From Oscillospiraceae bacterium (GTDB taxonomy: Bacteria; Bacillota; Clostridia; Oscillospirales; CAG-272): DNA of 64,000 bases. The position numbers were made by a program, and so were the translations under genes. Location of the stretch: positions 1 to 64,000 of the forward strand of contig SVTW01000002.1 in NCBI GenBank assembly GCA_015063585.1, in the 5' to 3' direction. The notes beneath the pieces are model-generated. The model made no database searches, was not told the DNA's origin, and saw nothing but the letters and a program-made list of their open reading frames with translations. Each line of letters starts with the position of its first letter. Position 1 is the first letter of the stretch. Below are positions 1,970 to 6,653 of this stretch, piece after piece.

Positions 1970-2530
1970 ATGATTTTATTTATGATCGCGATGATAGAAT
2001 CCCCACGGGATCGAGATATCGTGGAGAGGATCTATCAAAGGTTTTATCGCGCAATCTACCAGTGTGCGTATAACACGCTCCAAAACAAGCAAGATGCCGA
2101 GGATGCAGTGATGAACACCTTTAAGCGGATCATCGAGCATGCGCACAAATTTGATTTGGAATCCGACGACGATATTGCGGCATTGGTATCCATTTACGCA
2201 AAAAATGAGATCAACCGCCTTTATCGGGCGCGAAACCGTTACCTCGAGCATTACGTGAATGCCGACGAATATCCGCAGCTCACCCCGATCGCCGATTCAG
2301 GCGAGGACATTGTGCAAGAGGTGATTCAGAAGGAAACGCTGAACGAGGTTATGTCTGTGCTCGATCAGCTGGATTCGGCTGAGCGCGATTTGTTTCTTTT
2401 GAAACATTATTATTCTTATAGCTATGCGGAAATTGCTGAGATTCTGGGAATTTCCGAAAACAATGCGCAGGTAAAGGTACATCGTTTGAAGAAGAAAATA
2501 TTGAAAAAGATTGGGGGGACAAAGACATGA
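1970..2530 (+). CDS. RNA polymerase sigma factor, ECF-like (sigma-70 family)
   Basis: A small sigma factor of 186 aa with only regions 2 and 4. Region 2 covers roughly residues 15-80 (CAYNTLQNKQDAEDAVMNTF) and region 4 the last 60 residues, with the helix-turn-helix SYAEIAEILGISENNAQVKVH. It would redirect RNA polymerase to a small regulon. The start is ATG 1970, with AAGGAGGT at 1953-1960; the track's GTG at 1949 overlaps that site's upstream side. Its stop overlaps the ATG of the next gene (ATGA), so the two are translationally coupled. The neighbour is a one-pass DUF4367-type protein, the usual arrangement of sigma and anti-sigma. The lipoproteins downstream may be targets. Confidence 0.9.
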   Translation: MILFMIAMIESPRDRDIVERIYQRFYRAIYQCAYNTLQNKQDAEDAVMNTFKRIIEHAHKFDLESDDDIAALVSIYAKNEINRLYRARNRYLEHYVNADEYPQLTPIADSGEDIVQEVIQKETLNEVMSVLDQLDSAERDLFLLKHYYSYSYAEIAEILGISENNAQVKVHRLKKKILKKIGGTKT

Positions 2531-3294
2531 GCAAGCCCTATTTTGATTCATTGGACCATATCATTGCCCTGTCGTTGAAAGGGTACGTCCATCAGGAGGC
2601 GCAAACGCTGCAAGAAACAGAGGTACACCATGTCCCCGATCCGAAGTTCACCAAAAAGATCGAACGATTGATCCGCGCGCGCAGAAATCCGCGCAGAGGC
2701 GGCGCGATACACACGTTTAAGGTGTTGGCGGTTGCTTGCTTGATCCTGCTGTCGCTCGCATTTGCGGCGTGTGTGTCTATCGCCGAGCTGCGTGAGTGTT
2801 TTTGGATTGCAACCGTGGAATGGGGAGAAAATTATCTTTCGGTATATTTCCCAAAGTCCGAGGATGAGATCGGCGAGGATCAACCGCCCGAGGCGCAGTC
2901 CGAAGAAGAAAACAAGTCCGAGGTAATCCGCCCCAATTGGTCGCTACTCCCTGCGTTGGAGGAGATAAATCCTCCAACCTATATGCCAAACGGCTACACG
3001 GCGCAGGATTCGAAAGAAACGCATACCTATTATAAGTTGTATTATGATGCGGAGGGAGAATATAAATATTTCTTTATGCAAAAGAACTATCCCGCCGAAT
3101 TTCAGATTTCGAATACAGATGTAACCGTGCATACGGTTCAGATCCATCAGTCGGAAGCTGTGTTGATTGCAGACAAGGAAGGTACGCTACTGATGATTTG
3201 GCGTGATGAATTTTATTGCTATTTGCTTTCCGGAGAATTTGAATCACAGGAGGAAATTATCCGAATTGCCGAGAGCGTGAGACCGATTACGTAA
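2527..3294 (+). CDS. One-pass membrane protein with C-terminal DUF4367-like domain; probable anti-sigma factor
   Basis: 255 aa. A cytosolic N-terminus of about 60 residues, basic near the membrane, precedes one transmembrane helix around residues 63-82 (VLAVACLILLSLAFAACV). An outside part follows, with an acidic linker (about residues 115-135) and a C-terminal domain with the DUF4367 look: a proline-rich entry (PTYMPNGY), strands, and a final helix of the EEIIRIAESV type. Coupling to the sigma gene by a 4-base overlap suggests it holds that sigma factor at the membrane. That role is inferred from gene pairing; no catalytic motif is visible. Confidence 0.75.
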   Translation: MSKPYFDSLDHIIALSLKGYVHQEAQTLQETEVHHVPDPKFTKKIERLIRARRNPRRGGAIHTFKVLAVACLILLSLAFAACVSIAELRECFWIATVEWGENYLSVYFPKSEDEIGEDQPPEAQSEEENKSEVIRPNWSLLPALEEINPPTYMPNGYTAQDSKETHTYYKLYYDAEGEYKYFFMQKNYPAEFQISNTDVTVHTVQIHQSEAVLIADKEGTLLMIWRDEFYCYLLSGEFESQEEIIRIAESVRPIT

Positions 3295-3304
3295 GTGAAT
3301 TTGA

Positions 3305-3427
3305 GTAGCTTATTTCTACTATCATAATGGTTATCATTGTCCATATACTGACTATAGTATTAGTGTAGGGGAGCTGATGCCAGAAGGTCAGCGCGCGGAA
3401 TATGTAAAATATTACCGTCTCGGTTAA
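3305..3427 (+). pseudogene. Possible remnant of a coding sequence (40 codons)
   Basis: After an in-frame TGA, 40 codons stay open to TAA at 3425 and read as a plausible protein C-terminus (ELMPEGQRAEYVKYYRLG). There is no start codon with a ribosome binding site. It occupies most of the 184-base gap between the DUF4367 gene and the first lipoprotein. It may be the tail of a lost gene; chance openness is not excluded. Confidence 0.25.
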
Positions 3428-3478
3428 TCATTCTCTAAATGGTTGATCAAAGTCAAATAAAAAAAAGGAGATTATACT

Positions 3479-4111
3479 ATGAGAAAATTATCCATTTTGC
3501 TTTTGATTATTGTCCTGTTGCTCTGCATGTTTGCGTCGTGTCAGCAGCCCGACATTCCACCTGTGGACGGCTCCGATTCGGACAGTGACACCGAGAGCGA
3601 AAGCGAATCCGAAACACTTAACAGCACCGAAAACGGCTGGGATCCCACGATTCAAGCATATTGGAATGCGTGCGTAAAAAACGGTGAAATACGCCCCGAA
3701 TCGCTCAACTCCACTGAATGGAACATTGCCGCGCCTGCCACGCCGTATACAAAATACAACACCTACACCAAAGCGTCCGATATTGACGTTTTCATGCAGG
3801 CATTAAATGAAATTGCAGATACACTTCCCACCCCCGATCACAGCGGTGAAATAGAGTATTCATCAACAACGGTGAGCTCATCATCACTCATACCTGCAAA
3901 AAAATCGAACTCCATTTCATGGAGCACCGGTGAAAAATGGTTTCAAATCAACACGGTATGCAAGGATCAAACAGAAACGCCCACCTATTCATTGTCTATC
4001 GTTCTGTTTTTGTATCAAGAAAACAAAATTCAAAAAATGTACGGAGCTTCATTTACGTTAACCGAATCACAATATACCAATATTTTGGAAACGCTTCACG
4101 CAATTATCTAA
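3479..4111 (+). CDS. Lipoprotein of unknown function, tandem family member 1
   Basis: 210 aa. A type II signal peptide with lipobox MFASC places the lipidated cysteine at about residue 20. A Ser/Asp/Glu linker (residues 30-46) follows, then a globular domain beginning WDPTIQAYWNACV and ending FTLTESQYTNILETL. The same start and end signatures recur in the next three genes, so these are paralogs. AAAAAGGAG lies just before ATG 3479. No known domain was recognised. It is probably anchored to the outer face of the membrane. Its linker DNA is almost identical to that of member 4 but not of members 2 and 3, which suggests recombination within the array. Confidence 0.8.
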   Translation: MRKLSILLLIIVLLLCMFASCQQPDIPPVDGSDSDSDTESESESETLNSTENGWDPTIQAYWNACVKNGEIRPESLNSTEWNIAAPATPYTKYNTYTKASDIDVFMQALNEIADTLPTPDHSGEIEYSSTTVSSSSLIPAKKSNSISWSTGEKWFQINTVCKDQTETPTYSLSIVLFLYQENKIQKMYGASFTLTESQYTNILETLHAII

Positions 4112-4276
4112 ACGTATAAAAAATATTTAAACAAAAAACAAGGGGCTGACTCAATTTTAACGCCGATGGTAGGCGACATCATCTGTTATTTTGATTTGCC
4201 GGAAGCTGTCATGTATCAATGTACCGATTGCGGATATGTGACCACTATTATGCCTCCCGAATTTGAAGTGCAATAA
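4112..4276 (+). pseudogene. Open stretch after lipoprotein 1 with a CxxCGY zinc-ribbon-like tail
   Basis: The frame of lipoprotein 1 stays open for 54 codons beyond its TAA, ending at TAA 4274-4276. The last part (VMYQCTDCGYVTTIMPPEF) looks like one knuckle of a zinc ribbon. It has no convincing ribosome binding site. Its final 30 codons are repeated exactly at 4978-5067. It is best read as a coding remnant now serving as spacer and leader. Confidence 0.3.
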
Positions 4277-4313
4277 ATTACGATTACATACTAAACAGAA
4301 AATCGAAAGGAGA
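4187..4313 (+). repeat. 127-bp direct repeat, copy 1
   Basis: Identical to 4978-5104, with an offset of exactly 791 bases. It ends in the ribosome binding site of lipoprotein 2 (GAAAGGAGA). Similarity continues into the signal peptide codons of both genes at the same offset, so the repeat marks a tandem duplication of leader plus gene. Confidence 0.95.
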
Positions 4314-4319
4314 CACTTT

Positions 4320-4967
4320 ATGAAAAAATTAACCGTTCTGCTCTTACTCTTGTCCATGCTACTCTGCATGTTTGCGTCGTGTTTTCAAAACGGGACACCG
4401 CCTACTGAAACTTTCGATTCAAATGACGCGAGTGAAAGCGATACCGAATCTGAAACAGAGCCTGATGAATTAGAGATTATCTCTGTCGAATGGGCGCCGG
4501 AGCTGAAAGCCTTTTGGGATTCCCTTGTTGCAAAGGATATGCCAAATCCAACCTGTATCACAGCTCAGTCTTTTCAAATGGACTACCCGATACTTCCGAT
4601 GCCGGTAGAGGAATACACGGAAACGAAAGAGATAGAAAAAAAGCTGAATAGAATCATAAAATGTAATGACTATTTATCCAATCCGGTTTTCTTTGACACT
4701 TCTGCACTTTCTGTTCGCGAAATCAGAAATTATTATTGGGTAATTGAGGGATATGGCGAATTTCTATTTGGACTTTACGAGTTTAAGACGGAATCCGGCG
4801 AAGCCCTTTATACAGTGTGTCTGCAACTTATGCTATATGAAAAACGACCGAATGTAATAGGAGATATTGGATGTGCACAGCTTTTTTTGTTGACAGAAGA
4901 GCAATTTCGCCCTTTATCCGCTTCGTTATTATTAGAAACAGAATCGCGCGCAATCTTTGACTATTAA
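4320..4967 (+). CDS. Lipoprotein of unknown function, tandem family member 2
   Basis: 215 aa. Signal peptide MKKLTVLLLLLSML with lipobox MFASC, then an acidic linker (SESDTESETEPDE) and a domain opening WAPELKAFWDSLV and closing FLLTEEQFRPL, the family pattern. The start is ATG 4320, with AAAGGAGA about 6 bases before it; the track's start 19 codons earlier lies inside the repeat. The gene has the same length as member 3 and sits 791 bases from it, so the pair arose by tandem duplication. The mature parts have since diverged strongly while the signal peptides have not. Function unknown. Confidence 0.8.
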   Translation: MKKLTVLLLLLSMLLCMFASCFQNGTPPTETFDSNDASESDTESETEPDELEIISVEWAPELKAFWDSLVAKDMPNPTCITAQSFQMDYPILPMPVEEYTETKEIEKKLNRIIKCNDYLSNPVFFDTSALSVREIRNYYWVIEGYGEFLFGLYEFKTESGEALYTVCLQLMLYEKRPNVIGDIGCAQLFLLTEEQFRPLSASLLLETESRAIFDY

Positions 4968-4977
4968 AAAAGCATGG

Positions 4978-5104
4978 TATTTTGATTTGCCGGAAGCTGT
5001 CATGTATCAATGTACCGATTGCGGATATGTGACCACTATTATGCCTCCCGAATTTGAAGTGCAATAAATTACGATTACATACTAAACAGAAAATCGAAAG
5101 GAGA
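4978..5104 (+). repeat. 127-bp direct repeat, copy 2
   Basis: Exact copy of 4187-4313, beginning 10 bases after the stop of lipoprotein 2 and ending in the ribosome binding site of lipoprotein 3. It carries the same 29-codon CxxCGY remnant and stop. Divergence starts abruptly at both edges, apart from the signal peptide codons downstream. Confidence 0.95.
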
Positions 5105-5110
5105 AATAAT

Positions 5111-5758
5111 ATGAAAAAATTAACCGTTCTGCTCTTGCTTTTGTCCATGTTGCTTTGCGCGTTTGCATCGTGTCAGCAAGCCGACGTGCCGCCCGCGGAT
5201 AGCTTCGATACGAATGATACCGATGATTCTACGTGGGATTCCTCAATCCAAACTTATTGGGATGCATGCGTTACGAAAGGGGACACAAAGCCGGAGTGCA
5301 TAATTTCCACCAATTGGGATATTGATTTTCCGGCGGTTTCAACCCCACGGTTTTATATTTATTATACAACAGACGAAAAAGAAGCGATCATTCAAAAAAT
5401 GGGGGAGATTGCGGAATTTTTGCCCAATCCATCTTCATTTACGCCTACTACTGTTTCTACGTCATCCTATCCGCTTTCTTCTTTTCTTTCCTCTTTTTCG
5501 CCAAGTTCATCCGATGCCGTTACGGAGAAAAAAAGTGATATGATCAGTTGGGAGACTGACGGAAAAAGGATCTTAATTACTGTTATTCGCGATGAAAGTG
5601 AGGAGATAGTTAAGTATTCTTTTTCGATTCGTCTGTATGTTGGGGAAAACGCATACGGAAACAAATTTACCTTAACAGAGGAACAGTACACGGAGATTAT
5701 AACTAAGGTGGGTACCGTACTCGCAGAATTTCAAGACGAACATATCTATGGGGAATAA
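5111..5758 (+). CDS. Lipoprotein of unknown function, tandem family member 3
   Basis: 215 aa. Signal peptide MKKLTVLLLLLSML with lipobox AFASC. The linker is short (SFDTNDTDDST), followed by WDSSIQTYWDACV, a central serine-rich stretch (SSFLSSFSPSSSD, about residues 125-137) and the closing FTLTEEQYTEIIT. ATG 5111 is chosen from GAAAGGAGA upstream. In domain start and end it is closest to member 1, but its leader and signal peptide match member 2, so the array looks mosaic. Surface location is inferred from the lipobox; function unknown. Confidence 0.8.
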   Translation: MKKLTVLLLLLSMLLCAFASCQQADVPPADSFDTNDTDDSTWDSSIQTYWDACVTKGDTKPECIISTNWDIDFPAVSTPRFYIYYTTDEKEAIIQKMGEIAEFLPNPSSFTPTTVSTSSYPLSSFLSSFSPSSSDAVTEKKSDMISWETDGKRILITVIRDESEEIVKYSFSIRLYVGENAYGNKFTLTEEQYTEIITKVGTVLAEFQDEHIYGE

Positions 5759-5862
5759 AAGATTGACATGGGTTTGCGGGCAGACATTGTATCAATATCT
5801 TTTGCCTTTGAAGTTAAATCAAATAATACACTGCATTATCAATTTCTGAAAGGAGAAACAAT

Positions 5863-6534
5863 ATGAAAAAATTAACCGTTCTGCTCTTGCTTTTGTCCAT
5901 GTTGCTTTGCGCGTTTGCGTCCTGTCAGCAGCCCGACGTTCCACCCGTGGACGGCTCCGATTCGGACAGTGGCACCGAGAGCGAAAGTGAAATAGAAACC
6001 GAATCGCTTCCCGACGGAAGCATCGTGATTACGCCTGCCGAATGGGATTCTGAGTTAAAAAAGCTTTTGGATTCCTTTGTGACTGGGGAATTTGGGGAGG
6101 TAGATTCGATGTCGAAAAATTTTTATGCTTCCTATCAATCCAGCTTTGTTCCAGTCAAAAGTGTAACCGACGCTGAAAAAATTGCAAAAAATGTTGAGGC
6201 TCTGAAGGACAGTATTGGAATTTTCACCAAGCCTGTGTCTGTAGAGACGATTGTGAACGGTGAACCAACGAACCTGTTTCATTCCCCCCTTGGTGTTTAT
6301 TTTTGGAGATTTCGATTTGACAGGTATTATCTTGAGGTCTTGTTTTTCCAAGCGCCTCCCATTCAAACAGGCAACACGGACGCATATTTTATCTCTTTAG
6401 CAGTTAGCCCGCGTCCCAACCTTCTCTATAATACTCCCATCGTGATAGGTCCCGGTGAGGACTACCCTCAATACACCACAATGTTTCAGGTGACAAAGGA
6501 ACAATATAAGGCACTTTTGTTGAATGACGAGTGA
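5863..6534 (+). CDS. Lipoprotein of unknown function, tandem family member 4
   Basis: 223 aa. The signal peptide is nearly identical to member 3 at DNA level (lipobox AFASC); the linker DNA is nearly identical to member 1 (GSDSDSGTESESE). The domain begins WDSELKKLLDSFV and ends FQVTKEQYKALL. It is the most divergent member in the middle, with a tail of only a few residues after the closing motif. GAAAGGAGA precedes ATG 5863. It is the last gene of the array, before a hairpin-rich gap and the convergent feoB. Function unknown. Confidence 0.8.
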   Translation: MKKLTVLLLLLSMLLCAFASCQQPDVPPVDGSDSDSGTESESEIETESLPDGSIVITPAEWDSELKKLLDSFVTGEFGEVDSMSKNFYASYQSSFVPVKSVTDAEKIAKNVEALKDSIGIFTKPVSVETIVNGEPTNLFHSPLGVYFWRFRFDRYYLEVLFFQAPPIQTGNTDAYFISLAVSPRPNLLYNTPIVIGPGEDYPQYTTMFQVTKEQYKALLLNDE

Positions 6535-6579
6535 GCCTGATACCTGTTCTGTCTCAAACATATTTCACTGATAAAACCC

Positions 6580-6622
6580 GGGGGGTGAGTCAAATGCAAA
6601 AATGCATTTGGTACTCACCCCC
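6580..6622 (+). terminator. Strong hairpin closing the lipoprotein array
   Basis: GGGGGTGAGTCAAATGCA pairs with TGCATTTGGTACTCACCCCC across an AAAA loop, and GACGTTTTTG follows. It lies 45 bases after the stop of lipoprotein 4 and is probably its terminator. Confidence 0.65.
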
Positions 6623-6653
6623 GACGTTTTTGCTTTGCGGCTAAACACCGCAA

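Follow-up and report, generated by a model that had tools for sequence, protein, structure and literature searches.

ECF sigma factors typically recognise promoters with an AAC box at -35 and a CGT box at -10, and later classifications of these factors have dropped the autoregulated AAC/CGT promoter as a requirement (PMC8103513). The consensus bound by Bacillus subtilis WalR reads TGTWAH-N5-TGTWAH (PMC9210968). DUF4367 proteins, of which we found no mention in the literature searched, recur behind ECF-type sigma genes in the bacterial family considered here; distant sigma/DUF4367 pairs occur in both genus and family (sigma factors 21-33% identical), and in other genomes distant DUF4367 relatives lie directly behind sigma genes. 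The window analysed here, a 64,000-nt stretch of Oscillospiraceae DNA, contains such a pair, followed on the same strand by four lipoprotein genes. We consider it about an even bet that all six genes form a single transcription unit whose sigma factor also drives a second lipoprotein cluster, C71, elsewhere in the genome.

The sigma gene (1970-2530, + strand) is best started at ATG 1970, which has a Shine-Dalgarno sequence, GAAAGGAGG, immediately 5' of it; the list of open reading frames starts the gene at GTG 1949 in the identical frame. The protein matches Sigma70_r2 (Pfam, E 1.5e-8) at residues 28-97 and Sigma70_r4_2 (E 4.6e-15) at residues 132-184 of 193, with no Pfam domain in between, as well as TIGR02937, the NCBIfam model of the ECF superfamily (E 9.7e-25). 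It thus has the sigma2 and sigma4 regions only, joined by a linker of fewer than 50 residues, as is used to define an ECF factor. Sharing 4 bp with its 3' end is a gene for a 255-residue protein (2527-3294, + strand) that has one hydrophobic stretch, at about residues 66-86, and a C-terminal DUF4367 domain (PF14285, E 1.9e-14; 54.5 bits, above the curated cut-off of 22.1). We regard this protein as a putative anti-sigma factor. Note that no anti-sigma domain model matches its cytoplasmic part, DUF4367 being the sole Pfam match up to E 0.1. An earlier note had read the two genes as a sigma factor coupled to a one-pass DUF4367 protein, an instance of a known regulatory arrangement of sigma factor and membrane partner, and both statements are borne out by the domain matches, the overlap and the topology. 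In the collection of genome contigs searched, the sigma factor had five weak relatives and the DUF4367 protein none.

Downstream, and likewise on the + strand, lie lipoproteins 1 (3479-4111), 2 (4320-4967), 3 (5111-5758) and 4 (5863-6534), built of a leader, an acidic linker and a mature domain. Every signal peptide ends in F-A-S-C, and the linker, rich in Ser, Asp and Glu, varies in length and is shortest in lipoprotein 3. The shared opening and closing motifs described in the earlier note are present in all four (WDPTI, WAPEL, WDSSI and WDSEL; FTLTESQY, FLLTEEQF, FTLTEEQY and FQVTKEQY, in gene order), and the mature domains are approximately 15-40% identical. Across the assembly (2.24 Mb, 86.5% complete) the family has six members, the remaining two lying on other contigs, the C71 paralog on contig C71 (L028 4312-4971, + strand) and the C11 paralog on contig C11 (L029 8114-8704, - strand), neither of which is adjoined by a sigma or DUF4367 gene. 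A hidden Markov model built from any five members recovers the one left out, at E 1.4e-13 or better (1.9e-16, 1.4e-13, 4.4e-17 and 2.3e-31 for lipoproteins 1 to 4, the last being the best value overall), when the best of 1994 shuffled decoys reaches only 3e-3. Judged from these comparisons of sequence, the homology of the six mature domains, and hence their membership of one family, is secure.

To which family of described proteins might these domains belong? None of the six mature domains matches a Pfam family above the curated cut-off, and for the four lipoproteins of the cluster the same is true of all Pfam and NCBIfam models, so that they still fit no described domain. Matches of the lipoproteins to Conotoxin, DUF1372, BamJ and PAZ stay below cut-off and reflect the leader or chance, and a relationship of the mature domain to DUF4367 is ruled out by an hhalign probability of 0.3% against the DUF4367 partner. 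A sequence search of the PDB returned no significant match, and a search of Rfam returned none at all. A mature-domain profile run against 146 related genomes, including some 34 of the same genus, turned up no convincing member; the sole weak match covers 47 residues within an 1828-residue frame. The domain was found neither in viral contigs nor in plasmids, and on this evidence it looks restricted to the species. A profile of the full-length lipoproteins, by contrast, has matches in 178 of 395 genomes of the family, nearly all of which are confined to the leader plus acidic linker (roughly the first 60 model positions). These parts are generic in this bacterial family, and the first 60 or so residues are therefore unfit as evidence for membership of the lipoprotein family. 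The predicted structures consist of helices, a sheet of long strands and a C-terminal helix. These models are of low confidence (pLDDT 47 and 66), and the best fold match, at E 0.1, is not significant, so that only the sequences and the secondary-structure prediction point to a fold common to the family.

Are the lipoprotein genes expressed together with the sigma gene? No + strand terminator is predicted between 1733 and 6534, and 3' of lipoprotein 4 there is a strong terminator-like hairpin (6573-6630, + strand; -33.4 kcal/mol, z -6.4, TTTTT end). Together with a promoter-like block that recurs at a second locus, discussed below, these features support co-expression, and we think it probable, as far as the DNA can tell, that the sigma gene, the DUF4367 gene and the four lipoprotein genes constitute one operon. 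The gaps between genes, at 104-208 nt, are long enough to hold further promoters. One might accordingly picture the lipoproteins as an unrelated tandem array, placed behind a sigma/anti-sigma pair by chance and served by promoters of its own. Promoter-like sites inside the cluster, however, occur at chance level. The same scenario would have to treat the element before the C71 paralog as no more than a remnant left by duplication of the sigma operon, and we return to it once that element has been described.

The block in question, TGAAAAAAACT-TGTAAG-N5-TGTAAT-N10-TATATAA, lies 5' of the sigma gene (1862-1906, + strand). A search of the whole assembly with three overlapping patterns gave full matches at two sites only: this one and a second copy that precedes the C71 lipoprotein by 160 bp. 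There is no third site in the 2.24 Mb. The stretches upstream of lipoproteins 1 and 4 and of the C11 paralog lack the block, nor can one be seen before lipoproteins 2 and 3. Upstream of the sigma gene and of the C71 paralog, the DNA can be aligned locally over about 100 bp, down to the Shine-Dalgarno site, with a score of 74 where shuffling gives at most 28. The C71 lipoprotein is the first in a run of other lipoprotein genes behind this block copy (L028 5122-9095), among them a pair of paralogs of 294-296 residues, 60% identical, that is found only there in the genome.

An alignment extending to the sigma Shine-Dalgarno site is what a duplication relic would leave, and it also suits an unrelated array that the C71 and C11 paralogs have no sigma gene alongside and that other sigma/DUF4367 pairs lack lipoproteins of this family. 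Yet a relic should not have kept its promoter core far better than its coding sequence: the block core is about 85% identical between the two loci, compared with about 63% DNA identity for the mature coding sequence between C71 and lipoprotein 4, its nearest paralog, which argues for function. We therefore consider an unrelated array quite improbable. The lipoproteins probably belong to the output of this regulator, to judge by the duplicated block and the operon anatomy. The earlier suggestion to that effect stands in part, since the sigma factor is a putative reader of the block and the block itself is non-canonical; the further idea raised there, that the lipoproteins sense a surface signal, is conjecture. 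Its corollary that homologs should lie near such a sigma/DUF4367 pair fares similarly: neither C71 nor C11 does, but C71 carries the promoter of the pair.

What, then, reads the block? It has no AAC...CGT pair at the usual ECF spacing and is not a canonical ECF promoter. A tentative but serious alternative is that a WalR-like regulator of the OmpR/PhoB type binds TGTAAG-N5-TGTAAT and switches on a housekeeping promoter whose -10 element is TATATAA, so that the sigma operon and C71 would be co-regulated and the sigma factor would have other targets. Boxes of the OmpR/PhoB family are laid out as a direct repeat with an 11-bp period, followed by the -10, and the block fits this anatomy (11-bp period, then N10 and the -10). 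The repeat is, moreover, a single mismatch away from the B. subtilis WalR consensus (PMC9210968). A regulator of this kind should nonetheless have more sites: the pattern TGTAA-N6-TGTAA-N9..13-TATA, in a search confined to the TGTAA form, occurs at just the two places already named, and its reversed control at one. So small a number of sites favours a reader devoted to them, the sigma factor for instance, over a broad WalR regulon, and we give the sigma factor slightly better odds than a response regulator.

The lipoprotein copies also differ in how their parts are related. The tract upstream of lipoprotein 2 (4184-4319, + strand) is near-identical to that before lipoprotein 3 (4975-5110, + strand), with 131 of 136 bases in common and no further copy in the genome, despite the fact that the mature domains of the two proteins are only 23% identical. 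Leaders are closest among lipoproteins 3, 4 and C11 (84-91% at the DNA level), whereas the mature domains pair otherwise, lipoprotein 4 with C71 (54%) and lipoprotein 1 with lipoprotein 3. These conflicting groupings, and the shared tract beside diverged domains, suggest that recombination between copies has probably homogenised the 5' parts as the exposed domains diverged. Each tract begins with a short tail of an open reading frame, ending in YQCTDCGYVTTIMPPEFEVQ before its stop, that resembles the end of a zinc ribbon; this duplicated, CxxC-containing tail (YFDLPEAVMYQCTDCGYVTTIMPPEFEVQ and stop; 4184-4273 and 4975-5064) lacks a parent gene in the rest of the assembly.

The single-unit reading set out at the beginning would work as follows. 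The promoter at 1862-1906 would drive the sigma gene, the gene for its DUF4367 inhibitor and the four lipoprotein genes, with transcription ending at the hairpin at 6573-6630. The DUF4367 protein, as presumed anti-sigma factor and sensor, would respond to a signal from the envelope by releasing the sigma factor. Once free, the sigma factor would read the block and thereby increase transcription at both its own operon and the unlinked lipoprotein cluster on C71. Diverged lipoproteins peculiar to the species would then coat the cell surface, if this is indeed their role. We prefer this explanation on the strength of gene order, family homology, the two-locus block, the end hairpin and the lack of an internal forward terminator; against it stand a block without AAC/CGT, the 104-208 nt gaps, the C11 paralog without a block and the lack of a recognised anti-sigma domain. 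A bolder version, in which a dedicated sigma circuit spanning two loci regulates a variable, species-restricted repertoire of surface lipoproteins whose leaders are recombined and whose mature domains diversify, strikes us as rather unlikely.

Exported proteins also accompany related pairs. In genome G005, tandem lipoproteins carrying DUF4367 lie beside a sigma/DUF4367 pair, and in G020, G024, G029 and G065 a homologous exported protein of about 140 residues does so (phmmer E ~3e-14 or better between them). A regulator with exported proteins nearby thus recurs, with exported families that differ, a pattern that fits the neighbour as output and falls short of proof. The exported family of about 140 residues has no Pfam model; its members adjoin ECF/DUF4367 pairs at L062 7259-7675, L063 8735-9178, L064 6250-6684 and L067 8918-9355. 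Two tandem DUF4367 lipoproteins right behind a sigma/DUF4367 pair (L066 8194-9198) could be decoys for the sensor domain of the anti-sigma factor. The closest DUF4367 homolog, in G052 (L060 862-1557), has an in-frame TGA where its relatives have Trp, reflecting a pseudogene, an error or recoding. For ECF/DUF4367 systems at large, the two-locus block offers a concrete, testable target, and it gives a lipoprotein family that would otherwise be an orphan a link to such a system.

How does the locus compare with known systems? It shares with the WalR (YycF) box the TGTWA direct repeat and the 5 nt between hexamers, but departs from the consensus at one base and has its only counterpart in the genome at C71, a WalR-like regulator being a candidate only. 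Like ECF sigma factors with a co-transcribed transmembrane anti-sigma factor, it combines a sigma protein of sigma2 and sigma4 regions and a short linker with an overlapping 3' gene for a one-pass membrane protein and a putative self-promoter; unlike them, it has an exterior DUF4367 domain, no recognised cytoplasmic anti-sigma domain, a block without AAC/CGT boxes and four appended lipoproteins. The ECF/DUF4367 loci of G005, G020, G023, G024, G029, G052 and G065 show the same gene order and topology, and in several of them small exported proteins or lipoproteins adjoin the pair, although their sigma factors are just 21-33% identical and the neighbours come from other families. The regulatory unit is thus of a known kind; what is new is the orphan lipoprotein family attached to it.
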